Made by a program: the position numbers and the translations under genes. Below, in pieces: positions 495 to 20,601 of a stretch of 20,808 nucleotides of DNA (positions are counted from its first letter, which is position 1; each line of letters begins with the position of its first letter). The stretch is from a virus: the IMG/VR virus record IMGVR_UViG_3300032116_001563, positions 1 to 20,808 of that record; one strand, written 5' to 3'. The notes beneath the pieces were generated by a model. The model ran no database searches and was not told the origin of the DNA. It saw only the letters and a program-made list of their open reading frames with translations.

Positions 495-1432
495 ACGCGC
501 TGGCCACGGAAGTATGCAACGCCATCGATCACCTCGCAGAGCTCGGGCGGCAGCAGCTTGCCATTCTCAAACGTGAGCACACAGAAACCAGAGCACCAGT
601 TCACCGGGTTCATCTCGGTGTAAGTAAACTGATCGCCGTATGGTTCGGCTAGGCAGCCGGTATCTACCCCCCAGCGACGCCCGTCATAATCACTAAATGG
701 GGTCACCCGGAGCTGGTGTAGGTGCCCGGTTACGATTGATCTACCTGACTTGATCGCATTATTCCACGTCGCGTGGGCCCCGTTATTGTAACGATGCTTT
801 ATTACTACTGACTCGTTTATGTCCACCCGCCAGGCTGTGTGCCAGCCAGGAAAATAATCCCAGAGGTTGCTGAACTCTGATAGCTCTGGAGCATGACTTG
901 CAATAAAGTTGAACAGACGTAGGTCGTGATTACCGTAGCTCCAGAATTTAATTGCGTTCTTGGATGCGTTTGCAATTTCATCTAATCGATCCTGGCACGC
1001 CTCAATCTCTTGCTTTGGTGTTGGGGGGTTAGTGTTCATCAGCGCGGGGTGTCGGCTGATCCTGGCTCCATCGAAGACATCCCCATTGAGCACCACCTGG
1101 AGCGGTTTGAACTCGGTTAGCAATTTAACAAATGCTTTGTGAGCTACAGTTGATTCGCCTGGCCAGTAGTGACAATCGCTGGCAATAAATACATGGCCAT
1201 TGTCTACCCTATGCTCTATCACTCGGCGATTCTCAGGTATGTAGGTATTGCGTTTGCTTTCTTGTGGCGCAGAGTAAGCTGGTAGCGCAATCCCGCGTTC
1301 AATTTGAATCTTAGCCTTGCGTTGGGCCAAAGCTCGCACAGACATACCAACGTGTTCGGCAGCTAGCTTGGTGCTGCCAAACCGTTTCATTGCCGAGATG
1401 ATTTCCTCGTCGCTAACTCTTTTTAGTGCCAC
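491..1432 (-). CDS. Calcineurin-like metallophosphoesterase with N-terminal HTH-like segment
   Basis: A 313-residue protein with the ordered metal-binding motifs of the calcineurin-like phosphoesterase fold: ASDCHYW (Asp86, His88), NGDVFD (Gly117-Asp118), YGNHDLR (Gly167 to Asp170), a histidine at 213 or 220, and GHLH (236-239). Such enzymes hydrolyse phosphomono- or phosphodiesters with two bound metal ions; the substrate cannot be read from sequence. Residues 7-48 are helical and include TKLAAEHVGMSVRALAQRKA, which looks like a helix-turn-helix and suggests nucleic-acid contact. The start codon is GTG at 1432, chosen because GGAG lies at 1440-1443 with good spacing. The gene overlaps the HslV-like gene by 20 nt, an unusually long overlap in this operon. 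No signal peptide is seen, so the protein is probably cytoplasmic. Confidence 0.88.
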   Translation of the reverse strand: MALKRVSDEEIISAMKRFGSTKLAAEHVGMSVRALAQRKAKIQIERGIALPAYSAPQESKRNTYIPENRRVIEHRVDNGHVFIASDCHYWPGESTVAHKAFVKLLTEFKPLQVVLNGDVFDGARISRHPALMNTNPPTPKQEIEACQDRLDEIANASKNAIKFWSYGNHDLRLFNFIASHAPELSEFSNLWDYFPGWHTAWRVDINESVVIKHRYNNGAHATWNNAIKSGRSIVTGHLHQLRVTPFSDYDGRRWGVDTGCLAEPYGDQFTYTEMNPVNWCSGFCVLTFENGKLLPPELCEVIDGVAYFRGQRV

Positions 1433-1850
1433 GGATTCTCTCCAGTTTCATCTCATCGATGGGGCCGTGCGAGCTGGTGTCGTATAGACACGCAATCTCA
1501 ACGGCCTCGCGTGGGCTCTTGCCCAGGTGCATGGCCCCCATTGCGTATCCAGCCCCGGTGCCAATGGCAAAGAACGAATTCTTAATTGGCACGGGTATGA
1601 CCGAGCTCTCGTATACCCACAGCCCCTGTGCGTTTAGCATCAGAATGCTGATGTCGGTATCCGAGTCCAGGTCACCGCCCTGGTCTAGCACCTGGTAGAA
1701 CTTGAGCAGCCTCTCAAAGTCACCGGCACCGCCGTAGATGCAGCCCTTGCCACGGCGCAGTTTGTTTATCAGGTAGTAGCTGTCATCGGAGCTGACCATC
1801 GAATCAGCGGCTATCTCACCTGTCAAAAAATTTGCAGCAATGGTTGTCAC
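1413..1850 (-). CDS. HslV/proteasome-beta-like Ntn-hydrolase peptidase
   Basis: This 145-residue protein begins MTTIAAN, like bacterial HslV (MTTIVSV). Removal of the initiator Met would expose Thr2 as the N-terminal nucleophile. Asp16 (IAADS) and Lys30 (NKLRR) match the conserved Asp and Lys of HslV near mature positions 17 and 33. Residues 39-43 (YGGAG) and 94-106 (FAIGTGAGYAMGA) match the HslV glycine-rich segments, and SPREAVEIACLYDTSS matches the following helix. It is shorter than host HslV (about 175 residues), mostly in loops. The start codon is GTG, which overlaps the upstream TGA as GTGA. No HslU-type ATPase is visible nearby, so it may act alone, pair with the host unfoldase, or process small or unfolded proteins. 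The family call is strong; the role in the phage cycle is unknown. Confidence 0.87.
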   Translation of the reverse strand: MTTIAANFLTGEIAADSMVSSDDSYYLINKLRRGKGCIYGGAGDFERLLKFYQVLDQGGDLDSDTDISILMLNAQGLWVYESSVIPVPIKNSFFAIGTGAGYAMGAMHLGKSPREAVEIACLYDTSSHGPIDEMKLERIRGTKKS

Positions 1851-4807: not shown

Positions 4808-5875
4808 TTAACAGGCCATTAGCACACACGGTACGCAGTAAGACCCGTCTGCGTAGGTGCAAGTAACATGATTGGATGTGACCTTGGCAACAGTCTTAGA
4901 GCGCACAATATCGTCACCCTGTGGCTTAGCAGTACCGTCACCAGCAGACATGAGCAAGTCACCCTTCTGGACAACCACGCCCTGAGCAATACGGATAATC
5001 ATGTCACCCGTCATCGCCATATTGATTTCGTCTACCTGATGGTCTTCGTCATATTCCCAGTTCACAAACACGCCAGCCACATTGACATCGCCCTCGACAT
5101 CAGAGACCTTGACCTTGTTTAACTGCTCGTTTGCTATTGGCTCTCCGTCTTTGGTGTAGACATTCATCTCATCAAGGTTAGACATGACCGTGCCCTTGAG
5201 CAAGTCAGGCTTAGTGAGCATTTGCGCCCAGCGAGATAAGTGACCACCGTTGTAGGATACGGTTGTGCCAGATACGGAGATGGTTCCTTCACTTGTTCCA
5301 TCTTGTGAAAAATAAACAATAATTCCATCGGTTGTGTCTCGTCTAAATACAGCAACAGCACCATCAAGAACGGTTGCCGTAAATTCTCCACTAGCGGCTA
5401 AATATCCACCAGCTCCGGTTGTTGTCGTTGTAGTTTTATTAACAAAAAAGTTACCGTTAGAATCAATACGGACACGTTCTGCGGGAGCAGCAGCGTTTGA
5501 TGTTGCAAAAATTAAATTTGCAGTTCTAGCATTGTTTCCAACCTGTGAAGCTGCAATGTATGCATTTGTTGTGTCAGTTCCACCGCCATCTGTTGAAAAG
5601 TCAAGTGAATATCCTGCGCCATTTGAAGCATTTGCATGATAAATACGAACAGTACCGTCTTTTACTTCTAGTCTTGCATTTACAGTCGTTGTTCCAATCC
5701 CAAAGTTCCCACTTGAGTTAAACCTAGCAACCTCTGCACCGCCCTCACCAAAGGCTATGGTGTCTGCCGCAGGGAAGAAGATACCTGTGTTGGTATCCGT
5801 ACCCTGTACCGCTGGCGTACTAGCGGAACCGTCTACACCCGCTATGCCTGTCGTACCGTTTATTGTTACTGCCAT
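4808..5875 (-). CDS. Tail fibre/appendage protein with conserved C-terminal domain (355 aa)
   Basis: The protein begins MAVTINGTTGIAGVDGSAST and carries fibre-type repeats such as ARFNSSGNFGIGTTT and ERVRIDSNGNFFVNKT. From about residue 205 a different domain starts (GGHLSRWAQM, then LLKGTVMSNLDEM, VSDVEGDVNVAGVFVNWEYD and MIIRIAQGVVVQKGDLLMS). It may be an intramolecular-chaperone type fibre terminus comparable to Peptidase_G2 or S74 domains, but I cannot confirm catalytic residues. The last 17 residues hold four cysteines (339, 347, 350, 355). The start at 5875 is set by AGGAG at 5883-5887; an in-frame ATG at 5902 would overlap the previous gene and has no such site. The middle (about 5270-5710) is AT-richer than both ends. 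Confidence 0.82.
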   Translation of the reverse strand: MAVTINGTTGIAGVDGSASTPAVQGTDTNTGIFFPAADTIAFGEGGAEVARFNSSGNFGIGTTTVNARLEVKDGTVRIYHANASNGAGYSLDFSTDGGGTDTTNAYIAASQVGNNARTANLIFATSNAAAPAERVRIDSNGNFFVNKTTTTTTGAGGYLAASGEFTATVLDGAVAVFRRDTTDGIIVYFSQDGTSEGTISVSGTTVSYNGGHLSRWAQMLTKPDLLKGTVMSNLDEMNVYTKDGEPIANEQLNKVKVSDVEGDVNVAGVFVNWEYDEDHQVDEINMAMTGDMIIRIAQGVVVQKGDLLMSAGDGTAKPQGDDIVRSKTVAKVTSNHVTCTYADGSYCVPCVLMAC

Positions 5876-5886
5876 GTGTTGTCTCC

Positions 5887-7917
5887 TTAAACCACAGTCC
5901 AAGCAGAGCCGCTTGTAACCGTTACCGTGATACCTGAATTTACCGTCACAGGGCCAGCAGATAAACCGTTGTAACCGCTGGCTATCGTATAGTCTGCTGC
6001 AATAGTATTTGCATTGACAGTAATACCGTTAGTGGAAACCATCGCAGTAGACTGCAACTCACCTGTACTGGGCTTATACAGCAGTTTGGCGTTGCCAGTA
6101 TTTAGACTGCTAGCCGTACCGCTGGTGCTGCTTACAAATGTTGGATACAGATTGCTTGTGGTGCTTGTGTCATTAGAGATAGTGATACTTGTACCGCTAC
6201 TCGGCGTTACAAACGACAGGGTTCCAGAGCCATTGGTCTTTAATACCTGATCTGCCGTGCCGTCAGTAGTTGGTAGGGTGAACGTATTAACAAACGATGT
6301 TAGGTTGCTATCGTATGCTTGGACATCTGCGCCGATAGTCAGGCCAAGGGAGGTCTTTAGCGTAGCCCCTGATTCAACAACAAAGTTAGTACCGTTGCCG
6401 ATAATCACGCCATTGTCTGTTGGGGTCAGGCCAGCTACGTCAGCTAGTTGAGCATCGTATGCTTGGACGCTCACGCCAATTGCGGCAGACTTTAGAATGG
6501 TTGCATCGGCAGGTTCAAAGCTAGCTGCTGTGTATGTGCTGTCTTTAATCAGCTTGCCGGTTGTGCCATCAAACGCAACAAGTCGGTTATTGACCGCAGA
6601 TGCTGGGCCAACCACATCCCCGGTTCCAGAGCCTGCCGCACCCTTCTCAGCTAGCACATCCCAGTATGTTGTATTGGTTGGCAGGTTGCCGGTAGAGGCA
6701 AGCTTACAGATGTAGCTTGAGCCGTTGTAGCTTACTGCGTCATCAACTACATAGGATGTGCCGCCAGCATAAGCACCCAGCCAGTTCATACCTACCGGGC
6801 CGGTTGCCCCTGTTGCACCGGTTGCACCGGTTGCGCCTGTGGCTCCGGTAGCTCCAGTTGGGATGCCGAGAGTCAGCGTATATGTACCAGAGTTGTAAGA
6901 CGCTGTTGCGCTAGACCCCGGAGAAAGAGTGGTAGCTGTGGCCGTAAAATTGTTGGCCAGGTTGATCGATGCATTGCTAGCATTGGTTGCTGTAGTGGCA
7001 GATGATGCAGCCGAGGTTGCGCTGTTGGCTGCGTTAGTCGCTGCCGTGCTAGCAGTAGAGGCAGAACTTGCCGCTGCCGTTGCGCTATTAGATGCGTTGG
7101 TTGCGCTGGTGCTAGCAGACGATGCGCTGTTGGCCGCATTGGTTGCGGAGGTTGATGCATTAGATGCCGAGGTACTCGCGCTGCTAGCAGAACTTGCGGC
7201 ATTTGACGCTGACGTAGATGCAGCTGATGCGCTGGCCGCAGCTGCTGTAGCTGATGACCCAGCAGATGCGTTGTCTACAATCAAGTCCCACTTAGCAGAG
7301 TCGGCGTTAGTAGAGATAGGCTGCGATCCGCTAGACGTATGCGAGGTATTGGCGTAGTAGATGTTGCCGTTGCTGGTGTCTTTGACAATGTCACGCTTGT
7401 TATAAGCCGTAGCAGCTGCCCAATTACCACGGTTTTCGCCAATGGTTTCGCCGGTTGTTGGGTTTCCGCTAGCATCAAAAGCAAGGGTCTTATTGGCCCG
7501 TACAGTAGACCGTGGCAGGGTCATGCTGATACTGGTTGGGTCAGTCTGCGGAGCCTTCAGAGCCCGGTCTACGCCCTCTGCGTTCTGCTGGGCAAAGATG
7601 GTTAAGCTATCGAGCTCATCATTAATCGTATTGGCAAACAGGTCACCGCCCGTCACAAAGTCCGAGGTGCGCTGAATCGCCCGGTCACCAACGATGGCAA
7701 TCTGCGTGGCCCCGGTGGGGCTGGCCGTCAGGGTCACATAGCCAGTACCGTTGGTGTTGATCGTAACCGTGTAGTCCGTGGTCAGCGTCAGCAGGGTATC
7801 GTCCTTGTACACAGAGATATCTGTGTTAGCCAGGATCTCAAAGGTAAAGGAGTACGGCCCGGTGCCAGAGGCAGCGAGCACTACTCGGCGGGTGACGTTG
7901 CTAATAGGTACTGGCAT
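5887..7917 (-). CDS. T7-type tail fibre with Ala/Ser repeat and collagen-like run (676 aa)
   Basis: Residues 1-160 match the T7 gp17 N-terminal, tail-attachment type: MPVPISNVTRRVVLAASGTG, then ISVYKDDTLLTLTTDYTV and FANTINDELDSLTIFAQQNA. Around 163-212 a short module (WAAATAYNKRDIVKD to AKWDLI) resembles a CBM5/12-like fold, and a second copy lies near 375-420 (WLGAYAGGTSYVVDDAVSYN to YWDVLA). Between them, about 215-318, is a low-complexity Ala/Ser/Thr/Asn repeat, then five GAT triplets ending in GPVG, like a collagen helix. The C-terminal part repeats VQAYDAQLAD and VQAYDSNLTS, a known fibre repeat style. It should form a trimer on the virion. AGGA lies 7 nt before the ATG. It is the first and longest of four fibre-like genes, probably the one attached directly to the tail. 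Confidence 0.9.
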   Translation of the reverse strand: MPVPISNVTRRVVLAASGTGPYSFTFEILANTDISVYKDDTLLTLTTDYTVTINTNGTGYVTLTASPTGATQIAIVGDRAIQRTSDFVTGGDLFANTINDELDSLTIFAQQNAEGVDRALKAPQTDPTSISMTLPRSTVRANKTLAFDASGNPTTGETIGENRGNWAAATAYNKRDIVKDTSNGNIYYANTSHTSSGSQPISTNADSAKWDLIVDNASAGSSATAAAASASAASTSASNAASSASSASTSASNASTSATNAANSASSASTSATNASNSATAAASSASTASTAATNAANSATSAASSATTATNASNASINLANNFTATATTLSPGSSATASYNSGTYTLTLGIPTGATGATGATGATGATGATGPVGMNWLGAYAGGTSYVVDDAVSYNGSSYICKLASTGNLPTNTTYWDVLAEKGAAGSGTGDVVGPASAVNNRLVAFDGTTGKLIKDSTYTAASFEPADATILKSAAIGVSVQAYDAQLADVAGLTPTDNGVIIGNGTNFVVESGATLKTSLGLTIGADVQAYDSNLTSFVNTFTLPTTDGTADQVLKTNGSGTLSFVTPSSGTSITISNDTSTTSNLYPTFVSSTSGTASSLNTGNAKLLYKPSTGELQSTAMVSTNGITVNANTIAADYTIASGYNGLSAGPVTVNSGITVTVTSGSAWTVV
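6791..6865 (-). repeat. Collagen-like GAT triplet run in tail fibre
   Basis: Within the tail-fibre gene the minus strand encodes five consecutive Gly-Ala-Thr triplets framed by IPT and GPVG. The DNA units are imperfect 9-mers with varied third positions. Such Gly-X-Y runs in phage fibres can fold as a collagen-like triple helix. The run can change length by slippage. Confidence 0.8.
6950..7275 (-). repeat. Ala/Ser/Thr/Asn-rich coding repeat in tail fibre
   Basis: About 100 residues consist almost only of Ala, Ser, Thr and Asn in a loose unit like SASNASTSATNAAN. The unit is about 7 residues and imperfect, consistent with a trimeric coiled-coil or shaft spacer. Long antisense open frames over the same DNA arise from this composition and are not genes. 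Confidence 0.8.
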
Positions 7918-15632: not shown

Positions 15633-17633
15633 TCATGCCCCAGGGTATGTAGATATCTTGTACTCTAAACCTAGCAAAGTCATCTTTAGCGGAATAGTTT
15701 GCCTAATAGTGATCTTACCTTCTGTCGTATATCCGAGAATGCTGTCGATAGTTTTTGTGCCAGTAAAGAGAGGTACGGGGTCATCGAGTGTGTCTCCTGT
15801 GTCAAAACTTCTAAAAGGTAATTCGTTGTCATTGACAATCAAATGCTGGGTGTCTTTGACAATAGCGTTTACTTCAATAATTCGTTTCTGGTAGGCGAGC
15901 CTGGTGCCAGCTGCAATCTTGATGTCTGCTGGCATGGTGACCGCCTGGGTAGTAAAGTTAAGACCTACCTGGTATGAGCTAGTAGCTGATCGCGGGAATG
16001 TCACCGTGCCGCCACCAGGTACTGTCTGAGCTGCCTGCACCGCGCCATCTAAAACAACCTGCACAGACTTGGCAACAAGGTGGGACATCGATACAGACGC
16101 AGCTGCGCCGCCAGACTTGGCGCAATCAAGTTGGAGGCTATCATCGAATACCTCAACGTAATACTGAGTCGTACTATTTATCGTACGTTTCACCACCGTA
16201 TAAATAGTTGTAAGGTCTACGCCAACATCGATGTATTCACCATCGGTTGTAAACTCGGACGGCGCAATTACGTTTTGCACTCGCAACATAGAAAATGCAG
16301 CGATTGTTCCACCTGTGCTGTTAACGATAAACAGTAAATCATTTTCATCGGTAGCTACTGACCGGCGCAGAGCCATCCTTGTGGGAGACTTTAGTAAATG
16401 GCCAGCCAGTAGCGATATCTTGCTTGTAACGTAGGTCAATTGCGTGTCTGTAAACGCAAACTCATTGAGTGACTTTCCCTGCCGCTGCAAAAATAGCGTG
16501 CCTGATTCAAGCTGCTGGACACGGACACCCTCTTTGGCACCATTGCGGGTAACCGCCTTCATAAAGAAGTTGGTGGGCGTGATTGGCTCCAGCCCCTCTT
16601 GTGGGCAATAAAACTCACCGCCTGTTGTAAAGATTTGCAGGTCTCGGCCAGAGGTTACATCGACAATTGCGTTAAAGGTGTTGGTGTCTAGCGTAGCCTC
16701 CACCGCATCATCGTCCAGACCTTCGGTTGGCTCAAAGTCAAAGAATAGCCCTACCTTAGAACCCCATACGGTTGATGGCCGCGACTTAGACCCGGCAAAG
16801 AAAAGCCTGCCCTCATGGAACGTAACCGAGCGTGGCCACCCTTTTCCAGATGACCACACAGCCTCGTATCCGGATTCGTAATCCCATGAGCCACTTGCAA
16901 TAGCAGAGGTGTTAAAAAACGGAAACTCAACTATTGCGTCAACTACCGTGGCACTTGTGTATTTGACTATCTTGGCCCTACCCTGGGGGCTGGCGTTAAC
17001 GTATTGGCCAACTGATGCCGCGCTAAACGGCGTGCCGGTTGAAGCTGTCAACGTAACCTTGCCAGAAACGGCAGACGGAGTCAGGGTGCCAGCTGGAGTA
17101 GATATTGATACGGTAAACGCATACTTTGGAATGCTATCGAATGACAGCGTGCTTGCAGTCCAGGCAGAATCGTTGGCACCGCGAACAATCTTTACCGGGT
17201 TAATGTCCTGGTGGCAGACAATCAAAGTATCTGCTGACTGTGTCCAAGTTAGATTGGCTAGCCTGGCACCAGTAAGGCCATATGAGCTGGTGTCTAGGTA
17301 ATCGTTTGCCCCTGCGTTGATGGCCAGCTGCTGAACGGCGTTTTTAAAAACATACATCCGATTGTGGGTAAAGCAGAGCATATAACTATCGGACGTAGAG
17401 AACTCAAACGGAACCAGGCGTACCCCATTGCCAGCGGAATCGGAACCCGCATTTGGCAGCGACATAATGTACTTAGAGCCCGGTCTGCGCCTAATCCCAC
17501 CCTGGGGCTGCACCACCACGTTGGTGGCCTCCTCAAGGGCGTTAGCGTAAGCCTGTAGGTCAACCCTAGCCCTCAACAGGGGATCGAGCTCCCCGGTTGA
17601 GAAGTTAGTTTGGATTGACGTAAAACGTGCCAT
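15633..17633 (-). CDS. Tail tubular protein B-like, podovirus tail nozzle (666 aa)
   Basis: The N-terminus MARFTSIQTNFSTGELDPLL followed by RARVDLQAYANALEEATNVV and VQPQGGIRRRPGSKYI is the recognisable start of podovirus tail tube / stabilisation proteins of the T7 gp12 type. RLVPFEFSTSDSYMLCFTHN and WTQSADTLIVCHQDINPVKI continue the same beta-rich, propeller-like pattern, with VTFHEGRLFFAGSKSRPSTV near the middle. In the virion it forms the distal tail nozzle below the tail tubular A ring. Its ATG shares one base with the TGA of the A-like gene (TGATG), so the two are coupled. Length is normal for the family (about 650-800 residues). Confidence 0.88.
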   Translation of the reverse strand: MARFTSIQTNFSTGELDPLLRARVDLQAYANALEEATNVVVQPQGGIRRRPGSKYIMSLPNAGSDSAGNGVRLVPFEFSTSDSYMLCFTHNRMYVFKNAVQQLAINAGANDYLDTSSYGLTGARLANLTWTQSADTLIVCHQDINPVKIVRGANDSAWTASTLSFDSIPKYAFTVSISTPAGTLTPSAVSGKVTLTASTGTPFSAASVGQYVNASPQGRAKIVKYTSATVVDAIVEFPFFNTSAIASGSWDYESGYEAVWSSGKGWPRSVTFHEGRLFFAGSKSRPSTVWGSKVGLFFDFEPTEGLDDDAVEATLDTNTFNAIVDVTSGRDLQIFTTGGEFYCPQEGLEPITPTNFFMKAVTRNGAKEGVRVQQLESGTLFLQRQGKSLNEFAFTDTQLTYVTSKISLLAGHLLKSPTRMALRRSVATDENDLLFIVNSTGGTIAAFSMLRVQNVIAPSEFTTDGEYIDVGVDLTTIYTVVKRTINSTTQYYVEVFDDSLQLDCAKSGGAAASVSMSHLVAKSVQVVLDGAVQAAQTVPGGGTVTFPRSATSSYQVGLNFTTQAVTMPADIKIAAGTRLAYQKRIIEVNAIVKDTQHLIVNDNELPFRSFDTGDTLDDPVPLFTGTKTIDSILGYTTEGKITIRQTIPLKMTLLGLEYKISTYPGA

Positions 17634-18247
17634 CAGTTCCTCACATCGATCAAGCTGTAATCTTCAATCACAGAGATTGGCTGGCCCTGGCCATCGATAG
17701 TGGTGGCTGTACGCATATACCCACCCCGGCCATTTTCTGACGCAGCTCCAATAGCAATCTGCTGCCAGTATTGTGTTTTGTCGATCTGGTCTGTAATTGG
17801 CAGAGACAGGTGCCAGGCCATCATGTACTTGAGCAGCTGCACAAAGTAGACCGGCATCTCGTACTCTTGGACGGCATAGGGATAGTCGGCGTAGATGGTT
17901 GTTTCGTTGGTGAGCAGCTTGTCTTGGAATATTCGGTAGGCTTTAATCGGCCTGGCACCAATAGCGTTGGTAACAAATACCTGCCTGGGAGGCCCAATCC
18001 GATCACCTGGCAACTGGTATTCGTACCTGTACTCTGTGGTTGGCGTAGTAATTAGCTGAGATAGCTGAATCTTTTTGTAAACAAAAGACCACGGATAATT
18101 TAAAAGTGTTTGATTTTTGATGTCTGGGTATAGTCGATCACATACATTGGCTGCGTTGGTTCCCTCGTTAAACGATGAGATAGCCTTGGCACCCAGCATC
18201 AAGAGAGCGTCTGAACAAATTGATAGTGCGGAATCACCTGCTGCCAT
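17633..18247 (-). CDS. Tail tubular protein A-like, head-tail adaptor (204 aa)
   Basis: The protein begins MAAGDSALSICSDALLMLGA, followed by ISSFNEGTNAANVCDRLYPD and LLNYPWSFVYKKIQLSQL, the typical pattern of T7 gp11-like tail tubular A proteins (SxAlxxLGAxxIxSF, then NYPWxFAxK). It forms the ring that joins the portal to the tail nozzle. I start it at 18247 because GGAG at 18256-18259 lies 8 nt away; the upstream in-frame ATG at 18253 is only 2 nt from it. The gene overlaps the glycosyltransferase-like gene by 14 nt, and its stop overlaps the next start. Confidence 0.88.
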   Translation of the reverse strand: MAAGDSALSICSDALLMLGAKAISSFNEGTNAANVCDRLYPDIKNQTLLNYPWSFVYKKIQLSQLITTPTTEYRYEYQLPGDRIGPPRQVFVTNAIGARPIKAYRIFQDKLLTNETTIYADYPYAVQEYEMPVYFVQLLKYMMAWHLSLPITDQIDKTQYWQQIAIGAASENGRGGYMRTATTIDGQGQPISVIEDYSLIDVRN

Positions 18248-18893
18248 TTGCATTACTCCATATATCTCTTACCCAGCCACTTGAACCAGATCCTTTTGGC
18301 TCCCCATGAAAACAAACTACTTTTGCCTCATCTGGTTTTGGCTTGCCAAGAAGATGAAATTTGTATGAGAAGATTCTATTGGGGAATATCTGTTGCCACA
18401 AGCAGTCTGGCTTTTGATTCTTAGCAATAAAAGCCTGATCTCCAAGATTCAAGCTCCCAGAGTACATAGTCATATAAAACGATGGGTCTGACTTAAATGT
18501 CAGGTAAATGTGCGAATAGTCCCCGTTCCAGGCCATCATCCCGCTTGCCGGGGTATCGCGCTTGCCCAGGTCTTTGAGCATCGTGAACTTATGGGGATAC
18601 TCGGCCAGCTCGGTCAGGTCACCACAGATAACGGTATCGAGATCAAAGTAAAGCACCGGGCCATCAAATACCCAAGAGAAGAGCTCGATCTTAGACCACC
18701 AACCTGGCCACCCGTGCTTGAGCGGTATCCGCTCGCAGGGTACATCTACATCTGAGAAACAAACAAACCTATGGTCTCCAAGATTCTTGGCAACCATATT
18801 CATCAATCTTTCTACATCGGCTGGGGTGTAGGGTTCTTTGCCAGCTGATTGGCTAAAGCGGCCAGACTTGAGAACGCAGACAACAGTTAACAT
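18234..18893 (-). CDS. Glycosyltransferase-like protein with DxD motif (219 aa)
   Basis: This protein starts MLTVVCVLKSGRFSQ and has WWSKIELF followed by VLYFDLDTVICGDLTEL. The Asp84-x-Asp86 pair in a hydrophobic strand is the DxD metal/nucleotide-sugar site of GT-A fold glycosyltransferases of the GT8-like kind. GDQAFI (151-156) and VVCFHGEPKG (192-201) match other conserved blocks of phage proteins annotated this way. It would transfer a sugar from a nucleotide sugar; the acceptor is unknown and could be virion protein, phage DNA or host surface. I start at 18893, where AGGAG lies 4 nt upstream, not at an in-frame ATG at 18986 that lies inside the previous gene. Its presence inside the head-tail operon is unusual. 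Confidence 0.8.
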   Translation of the reverse strand: MLTVVCVLKSGRFSQSAGKEPYTPADVERLMNMVAKNLGDHRFVCFSDVDVPCERIPLKHGWPGWWSKIELFSWVFDGPVLYFDLDTVICGDLTELAEYPHKFTMLKDLGKRDTPASGMMAWNGDYSHIYLTFKSDPSFYMTMYSGSLNLGDQAFIAKNQKPDCLWQQIFPNRIFSYKFHLLGKPKPDEAKVVCFHGEPKGSGSSGWVRDIWSNANGSR

Positions 18894-19441
18894 GGGGCTC
18901 CTAAAACTTGGCGGGTATATCCGCTGACAGAGGTTACACCATCCATGCGTCCATGTTCTTTGTGTATATACAAAAACCTCTGCCAATGCTCAATGTTATT
19001 GGCGGGAGCAAATACCCTGTCTGGTTTGCTGTCTGGGTATTGAGCGTGGTAATCGGTGCTACTAACACTTAGTGGAATACCGGCCATAATTACTTCATCG
19101 AAACCCATAGCCTTGGCCCAAATTGCAGCCACAACGCCGCTCGATCCTTTTATTCCAACCATGCTAGTCCACCAGTAGTCCACATCATCTCCAACGATGT
19201 CTGCCCTGGCGTGAACCTTTATTGGCCTACCGGCCTTGGTTTTGTATTCTTGAGCGTAGCTGTTGTGCTGCGTCCAGATATGCTCAATCTCAGGAATTAT
19301 TGCAGCTGCGTTATTGACCCCAACGATAGTGGAGCCTGGGCGCAGCTTGAGTGCGTTTGCTAGGTCTTCAAAGACACAAGGGGCCGCGCCACAAATAATG
19401 GCACACCCCTTGTGTTGTACGTCATACGGCTGCGGCATCAC
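18887..19441 (-). CDS. Rossmann-like protein, DUF115/MptE-like, possible sugar-pathway partner (184 aa)
   Basis: The N-terminus has CAIICGAAPCVFEDLANALK followed by GSTIVGVNNAAAII, a Gly-rich nucleotide-binding type loop. Later come GIKGSSGVVAAIWAKAMGFD and VIMAGIPLSVSSTDYHAQYP. This GSSG...A...GF...GIP layout resembles DUF115/MptE-like and related Rossmann proteins often found near surface-sugar genes. No transmembrane segment is seen. I use the GTG at 19441; an ATG at 19438 is equally possible, and neither has a clear ribosome-binding site. Seven bases at its 3' end overlap the glycosyltransferase-like gene, so the two are probably made together. The family assignment is tentative, and it may be an enzyme of sugar transfer or a nucleotide-binding protein. 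Confidence 0.7.
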   Translation of the reverse strand: MMPQPYDVQHKGCAIICGAAPCVFEDLANALKLRPGSTIVGVNNAAAIIPEIEHIWTQHNSYAQEYKTKAGRPIKVHARADIVGDDVDYWWTSMVGIKGSSGVVAAIWAKAMGFDEVIMAGIPLSVSSTDYHAQYPDSKPDRVFAPANNIEHWQRFLYIHKEHGRMDGVTSVSGYTRQVLGAPC

Positions 19442-19468
19442 AATCGGGAGCTTATGGCCCCCTCTTGA

Positions 19469-19747
19469 TTAGTCCGTATCCGTGTTGGCTAATGTTGTGC
19501 CATCGTTCACATCAACTACGCCTGATGCGTTAGACAGTACATATACCAGCGTTGCTACAGCGGTTGAACCTGTTGACGTTACACAGTAAATCAGATCCCC
19601 AACTTCCAGGGTATCAGCCAGGCTGTTGAAGTAACCAGCTGTGTTGACATCAGCAATGGAGTCAGTTGTCTTATAAGCGTAGATCGATGGTGCGTTGCCG
19701 CGCTTATTGGGGCTGACAGAGTTTAAACCAGTAATAGAAAAAGCCAT
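19469..19747 (-). CDS. Small virion-associated candidate, possible head decoration (92 aa)
   Basis: The protein begins MAFSITGLNSVSPNKRGNAP and continues SIYAYKTTDSIADVNTAGYF. The 'YKTTDxxADVxxxGYF' motif is common in short phage virion proteins located just after the capsid gene. It is beta-rich (DLIYCVTSTGSTAVATLVYV) with no membrane segment. AAGGAG lies 7 nt before the ATG, the strongest ribosome-binding site in the window after the capsid gene, which suggests high expression. A head decoration or head-tail protein role is inferred from position and expression signal. Confidence 0.8.
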   Translation of the reverse strand: MAFSITGLNSVSPNKRGNAPSIYAYKTTDSIADVNTAGYFNSLADTLEVGDLIYCVTSTGSTAVATLVYVLSNASGVVDVNDGTTLANTDTD

Positions 19748-19758
19748 TGTCGTTCTCC

Positions 19759-20601
19759 TTATACCGAATCGGTTGTTTGGACTTCGACAATACCTTCAGC
19801 ATCGATGGCAATTGCACCGGCTGAGAATACTGCGTTGACCAAAAAGCTGGTCTTCTCAGGGATGTAATTGATTTCCGTGCGAGGAGCGATACCCTCTGCA
19901 TAGCCGATAGCGTCACGGTGGAAAGCCCACAGCTTGCGCTCAGATGATGCAACAGGAAGACCACCCTCGGCGCGGTCACCGATTGTGTGGAAAGTAAAGC
20001 CGAGGAACGTGTTGAGCTCTCCAGATACCAGGGCGCGGACAGTATTGAAATCTGCGCTGGTAACCGAGGTCTCAGCAAGCAACGATGCCAAAGAGTTTGC
20101 GTGGATGATCATGTGGCGGTTGTCCATTGGGACGTTGCCTTTGTCCAGCAATTTCTTAGCAGCACGCAGTTTGGCTACGTTCAGGCCAGTATTAGTACCA
20201 CCCTCGTCTTCGGTCACGATTAAGCTTGTGCTCGAACCTGCGAGTGCGTCCAAAACGATCTGGTCTTGACGGCGGCCAATAGCGGAACCAACCACCTGGA
20301 CAAGCTCAGAACGCTCGTCAAAGTTAACTTTAGCCTGATTGAAGATGTCGCTGTACTCAGCGGCATTGTAATCAGTCAGCGTGCAGGTGACGTTAGAGAA
20401 CGCTACGTTTAAAGGGCTAACATCGGATTGGGGAACGCGCACGGTGGCCACGCCCTTGCCGACTTTAGGGAATTTTACAGTTGAGCCTTCGACACCCCTG
20501 CGCTGACGAACCGCACCTACCAACTGGGCTTTGCCCTGGTAAGCTTGCTTAACTTCAGCGTCAAAGAGGGTTACAAAGGCGTTTGATAATGAAATCGCCA
20601 T
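19759..20601 (-). CDS. Major capsid protein (280 aa)
   Basis: The protein begins MAISLSNAFVTLFDAEVKQA and contains VRQRRGVEGSTVKFPKVGKG and VNFDERSELVQVVGSAIGRR, then MIIHANSLASLLAETSVTSA and GELNTFLGFTFHTIGDRAEG. This is the pattern of podovirus major capsid proteins in aquatic T7-like phages, which I take to have an HK97-type fold. The last part (FSAGAIAIDAEGIVEVQTTD) is typical for such proteins. The start is supported by GGAG at 20609-20612. The gene is the first after a terminator and a 169-nt leader, so it begins the transcript unit and probably has its own promoter. No separate scaffold gene is in the window; it probably lies to the right. Confidence 0.9.
   Translation of the reverse strand: MAISLSNAFVTLFDAEVKQAYQGKAQLVGAVRQRRGVEGSTVKFPKVGKGVATVRVPQSDVSPLNVAFSNVTCTLTDYNAAEYSDIFNQAKVNFDERSELVQVVGSAIGRRQDQIVLDALAGSSTSLIVTEDEGGTNTGLNVAKLRAAKKLLDKGNVPMDNRHMIIHANSLASLLAETSVTSADFNTVRALVSGELNTFLGFTFHTIGDRAEGGLPVASSERKLWAFHRDAIGYAEGIAPRTEINYIPEKTSFLVNAVFSAGAIAIDAEGIVEVQTTDSV

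Follow-up and report, generated by a model that had tools for sequence, protein, structure and literature searches.

A gene pair between the capsid and tail genes of an environmental phage, recurrent in unrelated phages and with predicted MptE/GT42-like and GT8-like folds, as a candidate glycan-modifying cassette

Few phages are known to carry glycans on their particles. In mycobacteriophages of cluster O and in Che8 (cluster F), phage glycosyltransferases reportedly act on proteins of the capsid and tail tube (PMC11600133, PMC11256854), the cluster O enzymes being encoded in tandem downstream of an O-methyltransferase (PMC11600133). Phage P1 has a group of genes running from pmgL to pmgQ after an annotated late promoter and containing pmgO, pmgP, ppp and pmgQ. 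Database names already describe PmgO as an 'alpha-2,3-sialyltransferase' and PmgQ as a glycosyltransferase; PmgO and PmgP belong to PHROG families phrog_4603 and phrog_2111, and PmgQ to phrog_1962. The gene name stands for 'putative morphogenetic function', and pmgO, pmgP and pmgQ were scored non-essential, according to the available part of the source (PMC10695390). The main text of the P1 structure paper (PMC9024508) makes no mention of these three genes or of glycosyl- or sialyl- terms.

The locus described here lies in a viral record of 20,808 nt (IMGVR_UViG_3300032116_001563), the whole of which we call the window. As the preliminary description had proposed, two sugar-related genes are found on the minus strand between the capsid and tail genes, where the features are the following.

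19759..20601, minus strand: major capsid gene (PF19821, E = 3.4e-73), 5' flank of the slot
19469..19747, minus strand: 92-aa gene, perhaps encoding a decoration protein (phrog_18004, E = 7e-22, a family of unknown function)
19446..19462, minus strand: hairpin with a 6-bp stem, 3' of the 92-aa gene (RNA folding of intergenic stretches)
18887..19441, minus strand: MptE/GT42-like Rossmann protein gene, cassette gene 1 (predicted fold; dN/dS)
18234..18893, minus strand: GT8-like glycosyltransferase (GT) gene, cassette gene 2 (phrog_1962; predicted fold; dN/dS)
17633..18253, minus strand: tail tubular A (TTA) gene, 3' flank of the slot (phrog_394, E = 1.4e-28)
15633..17633, minus strand: tail tubular B gene, after TTA in the block

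Elsewhere in the window, a 145-aa ORF at 1413-1850 (minus strand) matches phrog_1040, an HslV-family peptidase (E = 7.2e-29), and adjoins a metallophosphoesterase gene at 491-1432.

The mutual overlap of the two genes and their coupling to TTA were seen as described earlier, while the layout had to be amended for an extra gene and for a later GT start. The stop of the MptE-like gene and the start of the GT gene share seven nt (ATGTTAA), and the GT frame in turn extends 20 nt into TTA, which couples the pair to a virion gene; the 92-aa gene and the hairpin separate the pair from the capsid gene. The MptE-like gene begins either at the GTG at 19441 (184 aa) or at the ATG at 19438 (183 aa), and relatives use the ATG equivalent to 19438. 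The GT starts at the ATG at 18893, as in relatives, giving a product of 219 aa; a 250-aa, TTG-started ORF was rejected since relatives begin at the ATG. Both genes are under purifying selection: over 15 relatives, median dN/dS was 0.091 for the MptE-like gene (two divergent relatives being left out of its pairs), 0.056 for the GT and 0.046 for TTA, and because the first two values are low and near that of TTA, these are not chance ORFs.

The 92-aa gene next to the pair is a constant feature of relatives, being present in 217 of the 247 sequences searched (the window and 246 loci, some of which overlap). Carriers have a hairpin 3' of this gene, ahead of the cassette, and the hairpin in the same position of empty relatives is stronger (median -28.5 kcal/mol over 58 intergenic stretches from the 92-aa gene to TTA), which we take to be the place corresponding to that of the T7 terminator. 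At the other end, 45 of the 68 occupied intervals have a last cassette gene that overlaps the TTA start, and in 17 more the two are within 20 nt of each other. Unrelated last genes (MptE-like, GT or methyltransferase) often have a C-terminal N-G-S-R in common, for example at 18234-18253 of the window, since their final codons fall in the overlapping start of TTA.

The first protein had been called a DUF115/MptE-like Rossmann protein, and here the fold agrees while the family does not. It scores 12.6 bits (E = 0.12) against Pfam MptE-like (PF01973), far under the cut-off of 34.6, for which reason we rejected DUF115/MptE as a family name; a PF01973 profile search of the window gave no match, and no Pfam or NCBIfam family was assigned to the protein. 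It matches phrog_4603, 'alpha-2,3-sialyltransferase', weakly (E = 7.6e-05). Its AlphaFold2 model (mean pLDDT 94.7, from an alignment of 25 sequences) has Cst-II and Cst-I (Z = 11.7) and Maf (Z = 11.6) as nearest folds, followed by SteA (Z = 10.6) and the methanogen HPPK/MptE (Z = 10.1); the superposition on the CstII-type fold has an rmsd of 3.3 over 170 residues. In sequence, the comparison with Maf gave E = 0.48, with 5mu5 only. Judging from the model, we are confident that the first protein has a fold of the sialyltransferase/Maf/MptE type. CstII has a catalytic His, and an H-x-H-G-x-H stretch in PmgO aligns with Y-x-x-x-Y in the window clade, which makes catalytic activity of the first protein less certain.

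The reading of the second protein as DxD glycosyltransferase-like was borne out. It matches phrog_1962, 'glycosyltransferase', over residues 21-214 (E = 2.4e-40), and its AlphaFold2 model (mean pLDDT 90.4, alignment of 14 sequences) is nearest to glycogenin (Z = 18.0) and LgtC (Z = 17.3), with about 199 residues aligned; a Pfam search gave no GT8 match. The DxD motif, D84-L-D86, aligns with D-A-D of glycogenin, L85 and D86 being invariant in the 14 sequences and D84 nearly so, and G-D-Q and H-G-x-P-K stretches aligned with glycogenin are also kept. The metal-binding His of glycogenin aligns with a Cys of the GT, which has a His two residues on. The predicted fold is confidently of the GT8 glycosyltransferase type, and thus structure prediction gave glycosyltransferase-type folds for both proteins.

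The scans used to gather relatives took the MptE-like, GT, TTA and capsid proteins as seeds (nearest relatives, up to 80 per scan), and the slot was defined as the interval from the 92-aa gene (or the capsid gene) to TTA. Among the nearest relatives listed there were 147 distinct intervals, in which presence and absence alternate. Empty slots make up 69, with lengths of 59–81 nt under a fixed-length convention for TTA. An MptE/GT42-like gene is found in 73, alone or with the GT or one of two methyltransferases: 33 hold MptE-like and GT genes (including L071, with one further gene), 22 the MptE-like gene without a recognised partner (including L025, L052 and L195, in which the TTA side is incomplete, L150 with a fused frame and L074 with an extra ORF), 15 the MptE-like gene and methyltransferase 1 (Methyltransf_23 or _11 type), and three the MptE-like gene, a short methyltransferase-like gene and the GT, the kind of this short gene being a reading of its sequence, which has no family match. 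The remaining intervals are three cut by a contig end, L152 (empty, without a recognisable 92-aa gene) and L218 (another ORF). Counting flank-seeded scans only (n = 120, with 17 further loci lacking one flank kept outside this number), 68 intervals were empty, 21 had MptE-like and GT genes, 17 the MptE-like gene alone, seven the MptE-like gene with methyltransferase 1, two the MptE-like gene, short gene and GT, and five were of other kinds.

Gene order is fixed, the MptE-like gene standing first in the cassette, and a GT or methyltransferase without an MptE-like gene was seen in none of 51 distinct intervals (none of 30 in the flank-seeded scans). Over all loci, overlapping ones included, 164 of 167 MptE-family ORFs either occupy the slot or abut a contig edge in a way that agrees with this location, the three exceptions being L074 (same slot, extra gene), L150 (frame enters TTA) and L102 (another phage). 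The L150 frame (5509-6618) runs into TTA without a stop and is either a natural fusion or a sequencing frameshift. The slot ORF of L218 (6391-6960) has no Pfam match and is open on both strands; an HNH reading of it was considered, and Pfam gave no match.

The cassette appears to come and go. On a tree of 137 TTA proteins its presence and absence require 10 changes, at least six of them forced by well-supported branches, and the GT changes seven times among carriers. The empty L127 and L026, which has the MptE-like gene only, have TTA proteins that are nearly identical and 92-aa proteins with a single residue difference, with 352/377 and 227/259 flanking positions identical (the aligner gap fell inside the cassette). 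They form a natural near-isogenic pair, which shows that the trait can come or go while the head-tail block around it stays almost the same; in the four other pairs the left flank did not align, and no exact insertion break points were obtained. Compared with the window, L028 has a GT 95% identical and an MptE-like protein only 55% identical, which indicates that the two genes can be swapped separately. In the closest cultured relative, Methylophilales phage MEP301, both genes are absent at the slot; this is a short-tailed phage in which, by the part of its genome paper available, no complete serine integrase was found (PMC8024684). Two observations had been named beforehand as counting against the earlier interpretation, universal presence in close relatives with a known non-glycan role and a lack of GT-A and Rossmann folds, and neither was made. 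No cultured phage matched the window's MptE-like clade, and 107 pattern stretches yielded no relatives of this clade in bacteria.

Distant relatives of the GT were found on unrelated contigs, and in most of the first eight inspected the GT has around it genes of the head-neck module, FkbM methyltransferases, sulfotransferases and proteins that show MptE-like motifs. The association was tested on 49 distant GT records, some of which are near doubles, so that effective numbers are smaller. The Pfam MptE model (whole records, E ≤ 0.01) matched in 27 of the 49, and 24 of these matches lie within 3 kb of the GT against 14.9 expected by random placement (0/20,000 shuffles as high); for records >15 kb the figures are 13/13 against 4.1. 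An HMM seeded with the window clade and six neighbours, iterated on the same 49 records (the first round gave nearly the same number), found an MptE-like gene in 37, namely 33 within 3 kb, all on the GT strand, and four more at 3.6–6.2 kb; it found none in the other 12, some of them short contigs with the GT near the end. On 65 background loci of the window clade this HMM gave three matches, all in cassette carriers. FkbM methyltransferases occur in 20 of the 49 records, always within 2 kb, HK97-gp10-like neck genes in 17 (15 within 3 kb), and sulfotransferases and one hexapeptide transferase in some distant islands. Two MptE-like genes lie near one GT in P1 (L339, 1650-2836), L099, L293 and L318, which suggests two successive transfers by paralogues. 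In L098 (1358-3703), a single 781-aa ORF encodes a methyltransferase domain, a region weakly matching GT9 and the PmgQ-type GT. The earlier suggestion of a moron fits the slot, but the pair goes back further and is spread more widely than a local moron would be.

Among cultured phages, the window GT is 30–35% identical to PmgQ of P1 (about 31%), HdmD of P7, and genes of Citrobacter phage phiNP and Stenotrophomonas phages. The pair itself recurs in phiNP, where the genes lie outside the head-neck block, and in Stenotrophomonas phage RAS14. The seeded HMM matched PmgP (6.9e-33), phiNP_031 (5.8e-31), the RAS14 gene upstream of the GT (5.4e-25) and PmgO (7.8e-24), E-values that refer to a small database and to an HMM that includes six non-clade seeds; an HMM of the window clade alone gave marginal values of 0.006 and 0.03. 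With the window MptE-like clade and the Pmg-type set kept apart, profile-profile comparison gave E = 4.6e-08 and a probability of 95%. In the Escherichia phages Chlobot and Chuche, the GT lies near tail genes and no neighbour is annotated as a sialyltransferase or as MptE-like, and in C48C1 the MptE-like match near the GT is only marginal (3.1e-05). A sequence search of solved structures with PmgO gave no relevant match.

We propose that the pair is an exchangeable, late-expressed glycan-modifying cassette whose acceptor is most likely a virion protein, and give this reading a probability of about one half. The MptE/GT42-like enzyme, as the constant member, would probably add the first, or an unusual (nonulosonic-acid-type), sugar to the acceptor, and the second gene product, here GT8-like and in relatives a methyltransferase or a methyltransferase and a GT, would extend or cap the glycan. 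This order of action is suggested by the seemingly soluble enzymes, the nucleotide-sugar-type folds and the coupling to a structural gene, by a partner that varies as an extender or cap might, and by the methyl-, sulfo- and hexapeptide transferase neighbours elsewhere. The acceptor would most likely be a cytosolic head or tail protein of the virion made at the same time, a choice favoured by location and by analogy with the mycobacteriophages; a phage-collection protein search with the window GT had no mycobacteriophage among its matches. The putative decoration protein gains no support as acceptor from its Ser/Thr content, which is not enriched in carriers of both genes (0.225 vs 0.246 in empty relatives). 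The cassette is absent from about half of the close relatives and pmgO, pmgP and pmgQ of P1 are non-essential, so any effect is conditional.

A different acceptor, late in infection, might be host lipooligosaccharide (LOS) or another envelope glycan, remodelled so that receptors are hidden and progeny virions avoid adhering to debris or to cells already infected. Cst-II and Cst-I (GT42) and LgtC (GT8) are LOS outer-core enzymes, which makes LOS a real alternative acceptor, since the nearest solved structures of both proteins include such transferases; the enzymes, which seem cytosolic, could act without being exported, LPS is bound by P1, and the sulfotransferases, FkbM methyltransferases and hexapeptide transferase would suit envelope glycans as well. 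We nevertheless consider this less likely, though a serious rival, given the position within neck modules and the coupling to a tail gene, and given that a late change in a short lytic cycle would probably alter little existing surface. Maf, equally similar in fold (Z = 11.6), glycosylates protein, as stated in the available part of the source (PMC11339370).

Less probable still is an action on some other target (bases of the phage DNA, nucleotides or a signal in defence): MptE-type pyrophosphokinases have this fold too, and MptE/HPPK and SteA are almost as close as Cst-II, but the constant partners are a GT8-like GT and methyltransferases, elsewhere sulfotransferases, and general annotation of the window brought no base-hypermodification gene to notice. 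That the genes are ordinary mobile cargo co-travelling in a permissive intergenic site, with no virion-tied function, would fit the repeated gain and loss on the TTA tree and the other ORF in the L218 slot, but is improbable in view of strong purifying selection, the fixed order with the MptE-like gene first, and the same pair at other sites in unrelated phages.

The presence of the pair in many unrelated phages suggests what may be a common way to put sugars on particles or host. More tentatively, and with some doubt, the MptE/GT42-like and GT8-like core may be a widespread phage virion-glycosylation system, often in the head-neck module, with interchangeable methyl-, sulfo- and acetyl-type tailoring enzymes, and with P1 PmgO/PmgP-PmgQ as its cultured member. 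If so, capsids or tails of many unrelated phages would bear elaborated glycans not yet looked for; virion modification by the pair would be a frequent trait, found in podophages, HK97-type siphophages, P1 and jumbo phages alike, and pmgO, pmgP and pmgQ of P1, so far unexplained, would gain a testable function.

Phage-encoded glycan modification is already known; what appears new here is the recurrent pair, the slot and the tailoring partners as one system, of which we recognised no description in the literature searched. Compared with known enzymes, the MptE-like protein resembles GT42 Cst-I/Cst-II and Maf in predicted fold (Z = 11.6–11.7 over 167–179 residues), while identity is just 11–14%, and the window GT matches the GT-A fold and the DxD-type, GDQ and H-G/K motifs of GT8 (glycogenin, LgtC). 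A methyltransferase beside the GTs, as described for cluster O in the part of that report available, is also found in the cassettes of some relatives of the window. P1 differs from the window in having two MptE-like genes, with a phosphatase between, outside the head-neck block; at the same time, in both a GT from one and the same family is accompanied by one or two MptE/GT42-like proteins, within a group of genes that is late in P1 and presumably so in the window.
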